The notes below the pieces were generated by a model. It ran no database searches. It saw only the letters and a list, made by a program, of their open reading frames with translations, and was not told the origin of the DNA. This document shows positions 58,194-63,549 of a stretch of DNA of 64,000 bases, piece by piece. Made by a program: the position numbers and the translations under genes. Source of the stretch: Tropicimonas sp. IMCC34011 (lineage in GTDB: Bacteria; Pseudomonadota; Alphaproteobacteria; Rhodobacterales; Rhodobacteraceae); NCBI RefSeq assembly GCF_003390865.1, contig NZ_QMEJ01000001.1:868001-932000 (forward strand), read 5' to 3'. Numbering within the stretch: position 1 is the stretch's first letter; each line of letters starts with the position of its first letter.

Positions 58194-59006
58194 TCAGGCG
58201 CGCAGGGTCTCCGTCGAGGAGAAGAACATCGCCTGGCTGATGGCCGAGCGAACCTGTTCCTCGTTGTAGGGCTTCGAGATCAGGAAGGCCGGCTCCGGGC
58301 GCTCGCCGGTCAGCAGGCGCTCGGGGAACGCGGTGATGAAGATCACCGGGATCTCGCCGAAGTGCCCCAGAAGATCGTTCACGGCATCGATGCCGGACGA
58401 GTTGTCCGCCAGCTGGATGTCCGCGAGGATCAGGTCCGGCTGGTCGCTCTTGCCGAGCTCCACCGCACCCTGACGCGTGCGGGCGACGCCGGTGACCTTG
58501 TGGCCGAGATCGCTGACCATGCTCTCGAGATCCATGGCGATGATTGCCTCGTCCTCGATGACGAGGACCCGGCCGGACACGCTGTCGGCCATCTCCTGAC
58601 GGGCACGCTCGACCAGCGCCTCCGCCTCGGAACGATCGGCCTGCATGATCTGCGCCACTTCGTCGAAGCTGAACTCCTCGATCGTGTGCAGTAGCAGCGC
58701 CTCGCGGGTGTTCTCGGTCAGCTTGCCGAGGTGCCGCTGCGCCGCGGTCTCGAGGGTCGTCTCGCTATCCGCGACCGGCGAGCCGGAGCTGGACCAGATC
58801 GAGTGGAACGTGCGGAACAAGGCGACCTTGGCGGACATTCCGGAGTTGAAGTTGGACCGGTCGATCAGCACGGCCTCGAGGGTTGCCGCCGCGTAAGCAT
58901 CGCCCGAGGATTGGTTGCCGGTCAGCGCCCGGGCGTAGCGGCGGAGATACGGAAGCTCGACGCCGATCGCCGATGTGATTTGCGAAGCGTCCTGACTGTC
59001 TGTCAT
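58194..59006 (-). CDS. phyR: General stress response regulator PhyR
   Basis: 270-residue anti-anti-sigma factor. The N-terminal sigma-factor-like domain (about 10-140: ELPYLRRYARALTG, LFRTFHSIWSS, FDEVAQIM) mimics EcfG, and a C-terminal receiver domain (145-265) carries phospho-acceptor D196 in LILADIQLAD and K245 in ISKPYN. When phosphorylated it binds NepR and frees EcfG. The ATG at 59006 replaces a longer frame. It is divergent from nepR-ecfG, with EcfG-type elements between. Confidence 0.97.
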   Translation of the reverse strand: MTDSQDASQITSAIGVELPYLRRYARALTGNQSSGDAYAAATLEAVLIDRSNFNSGMSAKVALFRTFHSIWSSSGSPVADSETTLETAAQRHLGKLTENTREALLLHTIEEFSFDEVAQIMQADRSEAEALVERARQEMADSVSGRVLVIEDEAIIAMDLESMVSDLGHKVTGVARTRQGAVELGKSDQPDLILADIQLADNSSGIDAVNDLLGHFGEIPVIFITAFPERLLTGERPEPAFLISKPYNEEQVRSAISQAMFFSSTETLRA

Positions 59007-59045: not shown

Positions 59046-59070
59046 GGAACCGAACAGCATCGCGCCGGTT
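59046..59070 (+). promoter_or_regulatory. EcfG-type promoter for nepR-ecfG
   Basis: GGAAC (59046-59050), 16 bases, then GGTT (59067-59070); the EcfG consensus is GGAAC-N16/17-CGTT. It lies 65 bases upstream of nepR. Autoregulation of the locus by EcfG is common. Confidence 0.7.
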
Positions 59071-59078
59071 TCGGTTCC
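59053..59078 (-). promoter_or_regulatory. EcfG-type promoter for phyR
   Basis: On the minus strand GGAAC (59078-59074), 17 bases, then TGTT (59056-59053), close to the EcfG consensus. It overlaps the opposing nepR promoter because GGAACCGAA (59046-59054) and TTCGGTTCC (59070-59078) form a nine-base-arm inverted repeat. Confidence 0.65.
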
Positions 59079-59135: not shown

Positions 59136-59333
59136 ATGTCTGAGAAGAAGAGATCCGCCGCGGACCTGGACACGAACCTTCGGCGGGTTTTCCAGCAGAA
59201 GGTGGACGAGGACCTCCCCGATCGGTTCACCGCCCTGCTCCAATCCCTGAGGGCACAGGACGAGGCCGCGGCGTCCGGCTCCTCCACTGACGGCGGACAG
59301 GGAGCCCCCTCGAGCGAGGACGGGTCCGAGTGA
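59136..59333 (+). CDS. nepR: Anti-sigma factor NepR
   Basis: 65-residue protein that binds and inhibits EcfG until PhyR~P titrates it. The conserved helix regions are LDTNLRRVFQQKVDEDLPDRF and LLQSLR, followed by a Ser/Gly/Glu-rich tail. The ATG at 59136 is the conserved start. Its stop overlaps the ecfG GTG by four bases (GTGA), the usual coupling that keeps the two in balance. Confidence 0.94.
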   Translation: MSEKKRSAADLDTNLRRVFQQKVDEDLPDRFTALLQSLRAQDEAAASGSSTDGGQGAPSSEDGSE

Positions 59334-59902
59334 CAAAAGCATCCGGAACGCCAGCGGCCGACCCGCGCGAAGAGATCGTTGAGCACCTGCCAGCGCTCCG
59401 TGCCTTCGCGTTCTCCCTGACGCGCAACTCCGCGGCTGCGGACGATCTCGTGCAAGACACCGTGGTCAAGGGCTGGTCGAACATCGACAAGTTCGAGGTC
59501 GGCACGAACATGCGGGCGTGGCTGTTCACGATCCTGCGCAACACGTTTTATTCGAACCGTCGGAAGATGCGGCGCGAGGTTGCCGATTCGGAGGGCACCT
59601 TCGCGGAGGGCCTCGCCGAGAAGCCCGCCCATGACGGCCGCCTCCAGATGGCGGATTTCCAGCGCGTCTTCGCCAAGCTGCCGGACGAACAGCGCGAGGC
59701 GCTGATCCTCGTCGGCGCCTCGGGGTTCTCCTACGAGGAGGCCGCCGAGATGTGCGGCGTCGCCATCGGCACGATCAAGAGCCGCACCAATCGCGGCCGC
59801 GCCCGCCTCGCCGAGCTTCTCGGTCTCGGTTCGGACGAGATCGGAATGACCGATAGCGCCACGATGGCGGTCCTGTCCCGATCCTCGTCGAAGCCGCTCT
59901 GA
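59330..59902 (+). CDS. ecfG: General stress sigma factor EcfG
   Basis: 190-residue ECF sigma factor (group 15) of the alphaproteobacterial general stress response. The sigma-2 region has LRAFAFSLTRNSAAADDLVQDTV and WLFTILRNTFYSNRRK; sigma-4 has FAKLPDEQREALILVGASGFSYEEAAEMCGVAIGTIKSR. The GTG at 59330 is coupled to nepR and its stop overlaps the kinase ATG (TGATG). Confidence 0.97.
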   Translation: MTKASGTPAADPREEIVEHLPALRAFAFSLTRNSAAADDLVQDTVVKGWSNIDKFEVGTNMRAWLFTILRNTFYSNRRKMRREVADSEGTFAEGLAEKPAHDGRLQMADFQRVFAKLPDEQREALILVGASGFSYEEAAEMCGVAIGTIKSRTNRGRARLAELLGLGSDEIGMTDSATMAVLSRSSSKPL

Positions 59903-61632
59903 TGCCCAGACCGAGCCTTCCGTCACGCCTCTTCAGCGGCCTCGGCACACGTCTGGTGATGCTGCTGTCGATCGCGCTGCTGCCGCTCGGCCTGATCGCC
60001 GTATGGCAGACGCGCGAAGTGACGCGCTCTATCCGGGAGGTCGCCGAAGTCTCCGTTCTGGCGCTGACCGAACAGGCTGCCCTCGGGGAGCGACGCCTGC
60101 TCTACACCGCCATCGGCGCGGCCAGCGCGCTTGGCTCCGTCCTGCCGGAGATGTCGGACGATGCGGAGAGGTGCGAAAGCTATCTCGGCAACTTTGTCGA
60201 GCAGTCGCAGCTCTACACCTATGTCGGCTTCCTGCCGCTCGACGGCCAGGTCACATGTTCCTCCCTCGGGGAAGCCCGCGACGTCACCGAGTCTCCTCTC
60301 TACATCGCCCAGAGCGAAGATCCCCGCCTGCGGATCGCTCCCCTCCGCAACGCCATCATCAGCCGGGAGGACGTCGTGACCGTCAGCGTCCCGGTGCGCC
60401 GGGGTGACGAGCTGATCGGGTTCATCAACGTCTCGATCCCCGACCGGGCACTTCCAGAATCCGACGACGGCACGCTGACGGAGGTGCCGCTCAGCATGAT
60501 CCTGTTCAATCAGGACGGCCAGGTGATCGCGGCGCGCGGTGACGTGGCCACCGCCGAGCAGCGTCTGCCGGCGAACTTTGCGCTGACCGATTTCGTGGGC
60601 CTCGGGCCCCTCGTGTTCTCGGGCGAGGACGGGCTCGGGCAGCAGCGCAGCTTTGCCATCACCCCGGTCGTTCCCGACGTCGCCTTCGCCATCGGGGCAT
60701 GGAGCCCGTCGCAGTTCCAGCTCGAACGCCCCGCCCTCGCCTTCCCGCCGTGGCTCTTCCCGATCATGATGTGGATCGCCAGCCTCGTCGTCGCCTTCTT
60801 CGCCGTCCACCGCCTCGTGATCCGGCATGTCCGGTCCCTCGGCCAGCAGATGCGTCAGTTCGCCCGCAACCGCCGGCTCGTCCCCGGCGCAGGCGAATCG
60901 GAGATGGCGCTGGAGCTGTCCGAGATGGAGGACGATTTCCTGCAGATGGCCGACGCGCTGATACAGGACGAGGCCGCCCTCGAGAATGCTGTCCACGAGA
61001 AGAACATTCTCCTCAAGGAGGTGCACCATCGGGTCAAGAACAACCTCCAGCTCATCTCCTCGATCATGAACATGCAGATCCGGAGGGCCCGGTCCCGCGA
61101 GACCAAGGCCATCCTGAAGCGTCTGCAGGAGCGGATCCTCGGCCTCGCGACCATCCATCGCAATCTGTACGAGACGCAGGACCTCGGGCGCACGGATGCC
61201 GGACGGCTCGTCAAGTCCATCGTCGAGCAGCTGACGTCGTCGGACGAAAAGCGCCGCCCGCTGGAGCTGGAGGTGGAGCATATCGAGATGTTCCCCGATC
61301 AGGCCGTTCCCCTCTCCCTTCTGGTCGCCGAGGCAACCACGAACGCGACCAAGTACATGGGGACGCACGGCGAAGGCGGCACGCATCCCGTCTTCGAGGT
61401 CCGCCTCAACCGGCTGGAGGGCAACTCCGCCCGCCTTGTGGTGCGCAACTCCATGGCCGCCCGAACGGAGGCCGATTACGGGGACGAAGGCGTGGGGCTC
61501 GGCAGCCAGCTGATGCAGGCCTTCGCCAGCCAACTCGGCGCGGATATCGACATCGACATCTCGAATGGACTTTACACCGTGACAGCCGAATTCGACGTGG
61601 TCCACTTCAAGCCCGATACGCAGGATTACTGA
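59902..61632 (+). CDS. HWE/HisKA_2 sensor histidine kinase (PhyK-like)
   Basis: 576-residue membrane kinase likely to phosphorylate PhyR. A transmembrane helix lies at about 17-35, followed by an extracytoplasmic sensor of about 240 residues (cache-like), a second helix (282-303) and a HAMP-like linker. The HisKA_2 H-box is LLKEVHHRVKNNLQLISS, with the phospho-accepting His at 375/376. The HATPase part has LLVAEATTNATKYM and DEGVGLGSQLMQAF. It is coupled to ecfG and followed one base after its stop by the PLD gene. The sensed signal is unknown. Confidence 0.93.
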   Translation: MPRPSLPSRLFSGLGTRLVMLLSIALLPLGLIAVWQTREVTRSIREVAEVSVLALTEQAALGERRLLYTAIGAASALGSVLPEMSDDAERCESYLGNFVEQSQLYTYVGFLPLDGQVTCSSLGEARDVTESPLYIAQSEDPRLRIAPLRNAIISREDVVTVSVPVRRGDELIGFINVSIPDRALPESDDGTLTEVPLSMILFNQDGQVIAARGDVATAEQRLPANFALTDFVGLGPLVFSGEDGLGQQRSFAITPVVPDVAFAIGAWSPSQFQLERPALAFPPWLFPIMMWIASLVVAFFAVHRLVIRHVRSLGQQMRQFARNRRLVPGAGESEMALELSEMEDDFLQMADALIQDEAALENAVHEKNILLKEVHHRVKNNLQLISSIMNMQIRRARSRETKAILKRLQERILGLATIHRNLYETQDLGRTDAGRLVKSIVEQLTSSDEKRRPLELEVEHIEMFPDQAVPLSLLVAEATTNATKYMGTHGEGGTHPVFEVRLNRLEGNSARLVVRNSMAARTEADYGDEGVGLGSQLMQAFASQLGADIDIDISNGLYTVTAEFDVVHFKPDTQDY

Positions 61633-61633
61633 C

Positions 61634-63220
61634 GTGACGGAAACCGCGCTCCACACGCGCGCCACCGCCAGCGAGGGCGCGCCCGGCGATCCCCGGCGTC
61701 CGTTCGATCTGCTGATCACCGCTGAGGAAGCGTATCCCGTCCTCGAGAGGTGCTTTCTCGAGGCGAAGGAGGAGATCCGCGCCGGCTTCCGCATCTTCGA
61801 CACGACGACGTTCCTGCGGGCGCCCGAATGCATCCAGATCGGCGAGACGTGGCGGGACCTGATCGTCCATACCCTCAATCGCGGCGTCCGGATCACGTTC
61901 GTGATCAGCGATTTCGACTGCGTCGCGCGGCCGAACCTGCACCGCCTGACATGGCGTTCGATACGGCATCTCCACGAGATCGGCGCCCGCTCCGACCGGC
62001 CGGACCTGCTGACCGCCACCGCTGCGCTTCATGCCGCGCAGGTCGGCCTTCTCCCCCGCACGATCTTCGCACCGAAAGTACTCGGCGCGTTGAAGGAAAT
62101 CTGCCGCGAGCTCAACGAGATGGAACCCGAGGACCGGGAACGCCGGCTGACCGACATGCCCGGCATCCGCGCCCGGACGACGCTGGACAGGACAGGCAAC
62201 CTGAGGCCGAAGGCCTGGCCGCCCTCGATCACGCCGGCCACGCATCACCAGAAGATCGCCGCCTTCGATCGCAAGGTCGCCTATATCGGCGGGCTCGACC
62301 TGAACGAACGCCGCTACGACACGCTGAGCCACAACCGCGCCGCCGAGGCGACCTGGCACGACGTGCAAGTCCGCATCGAGGGCCCCGTCGCGGAGGAGGT
62401 CCACGACCATATCGGCCGCTTCCAGGCGGAGACGGCCGGGGCGCGACCGAAGGCCACGAAGCATCTTCTGCGCACGCTGTCGGCCAAGCGCCGCGTGGAA
62501 TGGCCGCGCCTGTCGCCGCGAACCCGGTGCAAGGAAATCGCAGACCGGCATTTCGACGAGATCGACGCCAGCCACGACCTGATTTACCTCGAAAGCCAGT
62601 TCTTCCGGGATCGTCGCCTTGCCTATGCGCTCGCCAAGGCGGGAACGGACCGGCCGGATCTGTCCCTCGTGATGACGCTGCCCGCCGCCCCTGAGGATGT
62701 TGCCTTCGAAGGCGCGAACGATCTCGATGCGCGGTTCGGTGAAGCTCTTCAGGCCGATTGCGTCGAAATCCTTCAGGATGCCTTCGGGGACCGCGTCTTC
62801 TTCGGCTGCCCGGCGCAGCTCCGGAGCGATGAACATGGCGGGCGGGACACGATCTTCGGCGCGCCCCTGATCTACATCCACGCGAAGGTCTCCATCTTCG
62901 ACGACCGCACCGCCATCGTCTCCTCCGCGAACCTGAACGGCCGCTCGATGCGGTGGGACACGGAGGCCGGCGTCGCGCTCGAGGGGAACGATGCGGCGAA
63001 CGCGGTCAAGGCGCGCTGCATGGGCCACTGGCTTCCGCCCGGAGACGACCACACGCCCTATCTCTCCGGCATGGACGCCCCGAAGCGCTGGCGGGAGCTG
63101 GCCGAGGCGAACCGTGCCGCGAAGCCGGAAGACCGGCGCTCGTTCATCCTGCCCTACACCCGCACCCCCGCTCGCGAATTCGGCCGCCACCTGCCGGGCG
63201 TTCCCGATGAGATGGTCTGA
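61634..63220 (+). CDS. Phospholipase D family protein
   Basis: 528-residue protein with two HKD motifs: H205-Q-K-I-A-A-F-D212 followed by YIGG, and H416-A-K-V-S-I-F-D423 followed by SSANLNGRS. This is the double-domain PLD layout (phospholipase D or cardiolipin-synthase-like transfer), without membrane helices or a signal peptide. The GTG start is one base after the kinase stop, so it is translated as part of the stress operon. It could remodel phospholipids under stress; the substrate is unknown. Confidence 0.9.
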   Translation: MTETALHTRATASEGAPGDPRRPFDLLITAEEAYPVLERCFLEAKEEIRAGFRIFDTTTFLRAPECIQIGETWRDLIVHTLNRGVRITFVISDFDCVARPNLHRLTWRSIRHLHEIGARSDRPDLLTATAALHAAQVGLLPRTIFAPKVLGALKEICRELNEMEPEDRERRLTDMPGIRARTTLDRTGNLRPKAWPPSITPATHHQKIAAFDRKVAYIGGLDLNERRYDTLSHNRAAEATWHDVQVRIEGPVAEEVHDHIGRFQAETAGARPKATKHLLRTLSAKRRVEWPRLSPRTRCKEIADRHFDEIDASHDLIYLESQFFRDRRLAYALAKAGTDRPDLSLVMTLPAAPEDVAFEGANDLDARFGEALQADCVEILQDAFGDRVFFGCPAQLRSDEHGGRDTIFGAPLIYIHAKVSIFDDRTAIVSSANLNGRSMRWDTEAGVALEGNDAANAVKARCMGHWLPPGDDHTPYLSGMDAPKRWRELAEANRAAKPEDRRSFILPYTRTPAREFGRHLPGVPDEMV

Positions 63221-63345: not shown

Positions 63346-63549
63346 ATGAACTGGGATCAAGTCAAAGGTAACTGGAAACAGGCCAAGGGCGCCGTACGCC
63401 AGCAGTGGGGCGATCTCACCGACGATGAAGTCGAGCAGGCCGCCGGCGACCGCGAGCGGATGGAGGGTCTCCTCCAGGAGCGGTACGGCAAGTCCAAGGA
63501 AGAAGCGAAGGCGGAACTCGATCGCTTCGCGGCTGACTACAACCATTAA
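63346..63549 (+). CDS. CsbD family stress protein
   Basis: 67-residue CsbD-like protein: it begins NWDQVKGNWKQAKGAVRQQWG, then LTDDEVEQAAGDRERMEGLLQERYG. CsbD was named as a sigma-B-dependent general stress protein of Bacillus and has no known biochemical role. AGGAGG precedes the ATG. The EcfG promoter upstream puts it in the general stress regulon. A terminator follows. Confidence 0.95.
   Translation: MNWDQVKGNWKQAKGAVRQQWGDLTDDEVEQAAGDRERMEGLLQERYGKSKEEAKAELDRFAADYNH

Follow-up and report, generated by a model that had tools for sequence, protein, structure and literature searches.

A candidate bidirectional EcfG promoter between phyR and nepR-ecfG and its conservation in the family of Tropicimonas sp. 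IMCC34011

In the analyzed window, a stretch of 64,000 nucleotides from Tropicimonas sp. IMCC34011, the gap of 129 bases between phyR and nepR contains GGAACCGAACAGCATCGCGCCGGTTTCGGTTCC at positions 59046-59078. This 33-bp inverted repeat, which has the form GGAACCGAA-N15-TTCGGTTCC, quite probably represents a bidirectional EcfG promoter that offers a single slot to the polymerase, of which a locked output ratio would be the consequence. The two-way site is neither a product of chance nor peculiar to the genome of the window, as overlapping face-to-face promoters within 27-33 bp are present in 152 of 179 distinct phyR|nepR-ecfG regions from its family. Divergent EcfG-driven units were already known, but their face-to-face overlap, as read from the DNA, appears to be new.

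The site in the phyR-nepR gap

A perfect inverted repeat with nine-base arms, which carries the EcfG -35 element on both strands pointing inward, had been the core of the original prediction, and the arms are indeed found at 59046-59054 and 59070-59078. Read rightward, toward nepR-ecfG, the repeat gives GGAAC-N16-GGTT, with the -35 box GGAAC at 59046-59050 and the -10 box GGTT at 59067-59070, 16 bp past it (both on the + strand). Read leftward, toward phyR, it gives GGAAC-N17-TGTT, with the -35 box GGAAC at 59074-59078 and the -10 box TGTT at 59053-59056, 17 bp past it (both on the - strand). These four boxes are motif readings, while the repeat as a whole (59046-59078, strandless) was annotated as a two-way EcfG promoter repeat on the basis of its sequence pattern and of an architecture that is kept in the family. 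As in bidirectional promoters, the elements for both directions lie in one short sequence. That each -10-like element lies inside the other promoter, GGTT at 16 and TGTT at 17 bases, had also been predicted and agrees with the coordinates and with the published spacing. The covered parts of two studies give the EcfG consensus as GGAAC-N16-17-C/GGTT (PMC12148442) and, in a second version, as GAAC-N16,17-C/GGTT (PMC4814048). The spacings of the repeat fit on both sides. On the nepR side the match is exact (GGTT, N16), and on the phyR side TGTT at N17 is one base off the C/G consensus, with TGTT and AGTT also occurring among the family sites. If transcription starts about 7 bases past the -10, the starts would be expected near the two ends of the repeat, approximately 31 bp apart, and under the same assumption the leaders would comprise about 40 bases for phyR and about 60 for nepR.

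The genes on both sides form a general stress response module, with PhyR, NepR and an ECF sigma factor encoded at one locus and phyR being divergent. The anti-anti-sigma response regulator PhyR (58194-59006, - strand) consists of a sigma-like domain and a receiver (Pfam PhyR_sigma2, PhyR_sigma-like and Response_reg) and scores above the cut-off of the NCBIfam PhyR family NF006623. On the + strand follow nepR for the anti-sigma factor (59136-59333; Pfam NepR, E 3.5e-12; no match in NCBIfam) and ecfG for the ECF sigma factor (59330-59902; Pfam Sigma70_r2 and Sigma70_r4_2), the GTG start of ecfG and the stop of nepR sharing a 4-base overlap. The adjoining HisKA_2/HWE sensor kinase (59902-61632, + strand; HisKA_2 E 1.3e-22, HWE_HK E 6.7e-9) is possibly the PhyR kinase; against the NCBIfam PhyK model it reaches 188 bits, under the cut-off of 750. 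Downstream of the kinase, an ORF at 61634-63220 occupies, by position only, the place of an annotated phospholipase D family gene in Dinoroseobacter shibae, and a further short ORF at 63346-63549 presumably resembles CsbD-type stress proteins.

The alphaproteobacterial divergent phyR | nepR-ecfG promoters known so far share with the window the same three genes, the divergent order and the motif type GGAAC-N16/17-NGTT. The nepR-ecfG unit usually is divergent from phyR with both under EcfG-dependent promoters (PMC4814048), and where it was tested in other alphaproteobacteria both units depend on EcfG, as seen with reporter fusions in Rhizobium etli (PMC3892343) and with transcription starts in Sinorhizobium meliloti (PMC3616915). 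The covered parts of these three papers do not give an overlapping geometry. EcfG promoters were also predicted at two loci of Rubellimicrobium thermophilum, the covered text presenting the consensus without geometry (PMC12148442). In the literature searched, which excludes most subscription papers, no published overlap of the phyR and nepR-ecfG promoters was found, and the same search yielded no member of the family of the window in which transcription starts had been mapped at this locus. For D. shibae DFL 12, which carries the nested form on its plasmid pDSHI02 (L355:2872-2904), the covered part of an RNA-seq study indicates that reads on plasmid genes were too sparse for start mapping (PMC5398030).

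Conservation and constant elements in the family

The pattern GGAACCGAA-N15-TTCGGTTCC matched once in the window and never in 100 dinucleotide shuffles. Taken singly, the motif GGAAC-N15-18-GTT shows no enrichment in the genome (116 forward and 107 reverse matches vs. 107 and 114 in the reversed control), so that either promoter alone is weak evidence; with 223 genome matches against 221 in the control, the single promoter motif was dropped as an argument. The nested two-promoter pattern yielded two forward and two reverse matches in the genome and none on either strand of the reversed control, and the phyR site was the only one to match on both strands. As one-strand matches of the nested pattern in 149 family genomes occurred in many cases at about the frequency of the reversed control, weight was placed on sites that match on both strands and on conservation among relatives. 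Of the 33 two-strand matches listed from these 149 genomes, 32 are adjacent to phyR, the exception (G010) lying inside an ORF. The two-strand match of G138 turned out, when checked, to be a phyR locus at a contig end.

Some further two-way EcfG-like sites in the genome of the window were not claimed as regulated pairs. A 27-bp fused two-way site at G000:C5:252069-252095 (L361:1470-1496) is located just upstream of a ferritin/Dps-like gene, its other direction having no evident use. Of the remaining two, G000:C5:173969-173996 is flanked by a DUF5333 gene and a small ORF, with a NuoF-like gene close by, and G000:C4:85520-85546 extends across the start of a transporter ORF.

PhyR was present at E <= 1e-40 in 112 of 248 family genomes, each representing a different genus, and of 123 named loci with EcfG, 80 were listed, nearly all of them titled as Rhodobacterales-type organisms; in these 80 the matches are 66-77% identical to EcfG of the window. 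Altogether 266 loci were examined. A divergent region was obtained from 219; the others had no ecfG in range (24), no phyR (10), no phyR start (8) or were not divergent (5). Merging of identical regions left 205, 179 from the family and 26 from the class. G244, G166 (two pieces) and the PhyR fragment of G138 stand outside the family counts.

The comparison of the intergenic region in relatives, proposed as a check in the original prediction, gives good support to opposed, overlapping EcfG promoters serving nepR-ecfG and phyR. Besides the 152 family regions with a face-to-face pair in the strict search, which allowed spacers of 15-18, 18 more regions contain GGAAC...GTTCC at 31-33 bp without a strict pair. 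The -35 pair is consequently kept at 27-33 bp in 170 of the 179 regions and absent from nine, and in none of the 179 is it replaced by back-to-back -35 boxes (gap <= 12). Strict motifs with N16/17 on both strands anywhere in the region occur in 152 of 179, compared with a mean of 0.1 in 20 mononucleotide shuffles. Broken down by source, either form is present in 96 of 105 regions from the family genome set and in 74 of 74 from the named loci, the strict form in 84 of 105 and 68 of 74, respectively. One match among the 75 of 80 named loci first counted, located 1.1 kb upstream of ecfG in L157, was rejected as a false pair; L157, whose 33-bp outer repeat contains no strict pair, belongs to the 18 looser sites. 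No strict pair was found between phyR and nepR of Roseobacter litoralis, where the sole two-way match scanned is a 28-bp EcfG-like one inside the nepR coding sequence (L357:2242-2269). A Rhodobacteraceae-type nepR-ecfG/phyR locus was also encountered in L167 (JAHVJD010000002.1), which is titled Nocardioides marinus and probably is a mislabelled assembly.

The 152 strict sites have outer lengths of 32 bp (83 sites), 33 bp (53), 31 bp (10), 27 bp (5) and 30 bp (1). Their spacers are 16/16 in 69, 17/17 in 44, 17/16 in 21, 16/17 in 17 and 15/15 in one, which means 16 or 17 on both sides in 151 of 152. The -10s on the nepR side read CGTT in 88, TGTT in 30, AGTT in 21 and GGTT in 13 sites, those on the phyR side CGTT in 111, GGTT in 21, TGTT in 15 and AGTT in 5. 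The typical arm GGAACCAAACG is composed of the -35 of one promoter followed by the reverse complement of the -10 of the other. In the fused 27-bp form (five strict family pairs), the opposite -35 box GTTCC also supplies the -10 core GTT, as is possible with GGAAC including AAC and hence the reverse complement of this core. There the -35 boxes lie 4-6 bp closer together, about half a helical turn, with both 16-bp spacers intact.

This relation between arms and spacers also bears on a reading in which a dimeric transcription factor uses the palindrome as its operator, the likeness to promoters being secondary. Many arms are near-perfect mirrors, with 23 of the 152 strict sites matching at all 11 positions, 42 at 10, 41 at 9 and 46 at 6-8, as would suit such an operator. 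However, it is the promoter spacers of 16/17 bp that stay constant while the arm distance varies from 27 to 33 bp, which argues for promoters and not for a dimeric repressor site, and with all but one of the listed two-strand matches being located beside phyR no regulon of such operators is seen. An operator of this kind is thus highly improbable.

In a conservation profile of 165 sites, the centre of the site contains almost no information. As 147 of these sites were picked for having both -10s, the -10 signal of the profile is partly circular, and a test free of any -10 choice was used instead, for which sites were picked by their -35 boxes alone (n = 163 at 30-33 bp, the first of two possible pairs being taken in a few regions). 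At a spacing of 16/17, GTT was found in 153 of the 163 sites for the nepR direction, in 152 for the phyR direction and in 144 for both, compared with 0-4 sites at each other offset (8-16 and 19-20 bases); at offsets 21-23 the GTT is that of the opposite -35 box itself.

It has also to be considered that only one direction is real, symmetry having produced the second -35/-10 pair as a by-product, given that GGAAC contains AAC. Indeed, the 18 regions without a strict pair have a 16/17-spaced -10 on the nepR side only (9), on the phyR side only (8) or on neither side (1), so that one direction may be weak or dead in the 17 one-sided ones among the 170 family sites with two -35s, and in the 27-bp form each -10 core is provided by the other -35 box. 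Yet, in the common form of 31-33 bp the -10s and -35s are distinct, the 144 sites mentioned above have retained both -10s, and the losses, nine against eight, are not one-sided. A single real direction therefore appears improbable, if less so than an operator.

Recurrent in the family are T-rich stretches, located 3-6 and 12-15 bases ahead of the -35 on the nepR side, as well as an A-rich one, which lies 12-17 bases beyond the opposite end of the site. These could be UP-like elements or reflect the composition of leader and ribosome-binding site.

Layouts in other families of the class

Outside the family, 81 PhyR loci were examined, of which 41 gave no divergent region, leaving 40 distinct ones (G584 and the second PhyR-like match of G050 are not part of these counts). 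Back-to-back -35 boxes at a distance of 6-9 bp were found in 13 of the 40 regions, from nine families. Three of these 13 rest on the -35 boxes only, namely L285, L329 (no strict pair) and L075, whose strict promoters are 41 bp apart. A gap of exactly 8 bp (GTTCC-N8-GGAAC) is shared by eight of the 40 regions from six families (L070, L081, L083, L087, L026, L085, L288 and L285) and constitutes a second strikingly fixed layout. Two regions of family f5, L085 and L252, were rejected as 27-bp face-to-face sites, their consensus nepR-side promoter lying back to back at a gap of 8 or 9. In the record of S. meliloti Ak57, the -35 boxes are likewise back to back, with a 5-bp gap, whereas the promoters of the window face each other on the same 33 bp. 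A record of 3.7 Mb (L356, CP090106.1), which is labelled as pSymB of S. meliloti, carries rsiA1/rsiB1 and, judged by its size, looks like the chromosome.

Face-to-face sites were found in eight of the 40 class regions, all from the families f37 and f42: the four regions of f37 have the 27-bp form, and the four of f42 are nested at 32 bp, their nepR-side -10 being CGTT and their phyR-side -10 CATT, and hence do not count as strict. The remaining 19 regions have neither layout. On a midpoint-rooted EcfG tree, which was calculated with FastTree from one short protein and is a weak tree, the family of the window forms one clade except that f57 is placed inside it. This nearest neighbour, f57, has the back-to-back layout with a gap of 6. 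The families f37, f42 and f145 group together, away from the family of the window, f145 having no face-to-face site in its one region. The distance of f37 and f42 from the family of the window suggests more than one origin, and judged by this tree the face-to-face layout may have arisen more than once. State changes on the tree (40 for all states, 12 for face-to-face vs. not, 2 for fused vs. nested) were not used in any conclusion; the labels predate the correction for f5, and f42 was scored as single.

A probable single slot for two directions

The class of bidirectional promoters in E. coli was reportedly founded by a paper from 2021. According to the covered parts of a study on this class, two polymerases cannot bind such a promoter at once; at low activity there is no competition between the directions, and strong activation of one represses the opposite RNA (PMC12825309). 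The site of the window resembles this class in its pseudo-symmetric DNA, on which polymerase would be accommodated in either orientation, one at a time, and in the predicted formation of divergent mRNAs from one short sequence. The E. coli class is, however, defined by a symmetric -10 element of sigma70 that both directions share, and distances of 10, 18 or 23 bp are common between its starts, whereas the window has separate -10 boxes (59053-59056 and 59067-59070), its symmetry lying in paired ECF -35/-10 elements, with the predicted starts about 31 bp apart. Also unlike the E. coli class, both products of the site are components of the circuit by which the sigma factor is produced.

As each -10 is located just inside the -35 of the other promoter, two complexes should not fit onto the repeat together, and the superimposed footprints with their predicted, closely spaced starts, taken with the E. 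coli promoters, point to one holoenzyme at a time. By geometry and analogy it is likely that expression of nepR-ecfG and phyR is, as originally predicted, mutually exclusive at each instant. We infer that both promoters are active, that one polymerase is bound at a time and that a locked output ratio is the consequence. EcfG-RNA polymerase would bind the repeat in either orientation, one way leading to nepR-ecfG and the other to phyR, with both promoters needing the same holoenzyme and occupying the same DNA. If a single slot is used by a single sigma factor, the two transcripts would stand in the same ratio as the binding rates at any level of active EcfG, and their sum would have an upper limit. 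While positive feedback drives the stress response, NepR-EcfG and PhyR would then increase in parallel, their proportion staying constant. As no competition is seen in E. coli at low activity, momentary exclusion need not mean two-state switching, and with the same sigma factor serving both directions a fixed share of initiations is likelier than switching. To describe the exclusion as a locked ratio is therefore probably more apt than to describe it as alternation.

In a one-slot model, the two directions fire at rates of a/(1+a·ta+b·tb) and b/(1+a·ta+b·tb), the ratio being a/b at any EcfG level. An illustrative calculation with equal occupancy times and arbitrary rates, on which the ratio lock rests, would keep the one-slot ratio at 2.00 throughout, whereas two separate promoters would drift toward equal output on saturation, from 1.98 falling to 1.00. 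That the single-slot promoter locks the ratio of sigma plus anti-sigma factor to anti-anti-sigma factor independently of active EcfG, with an output of at most one polymerase per cycle, is a tentative proposal which we consider rather unlikely.

A chance not far short of even is given to the view that the overlap is a matter of compactness or history, with two ordinary EcfG autoregulatory promoters on the same ancestral DNA and an exclusion without regulatory role. This view is compatible with a bidirectional promoter and disputes the ratio lock only. Promoters that share DNA should not be separable by small changes such as short indels, so that the conserved overlap may be inertia. Other families manage with back-to-back -35 boxes, as in the 13 class regions and in the S. 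meliloti record, both genes being EcfG-dependent in another strain of that species (PMC3616915, covered part), and the absence of competition at basal activity in E. coli (PMC12825309, covered part) fits as well. Against it stand the face-to-face sites of f37 and f42, which are distant from the family on the weak single-protein tree.

A single-slot layout may have been kept through most of the family of the window, either nested at 31-33 bp or fused at 27 bp, and may be present in two other families, perhaps separately. As far as sequence comparison tells, the two-way layout is more general than one genome, being shared by most of the family regions examined. With it, bidirectional promoters would be extended beyond the sigma70 -10 class to those of an ECF sigma factor. 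As the -35 and -10 cores of this factor are partial reverse complements, two-way promoters of this kind should be easy to evolve. Partner switches depend on protein ratios. If the proposed mechanism is true, a shared landing site would set such a ratio in the DNA itself, insensitive to signal strength, in a manner that would be simple and easy to build with.
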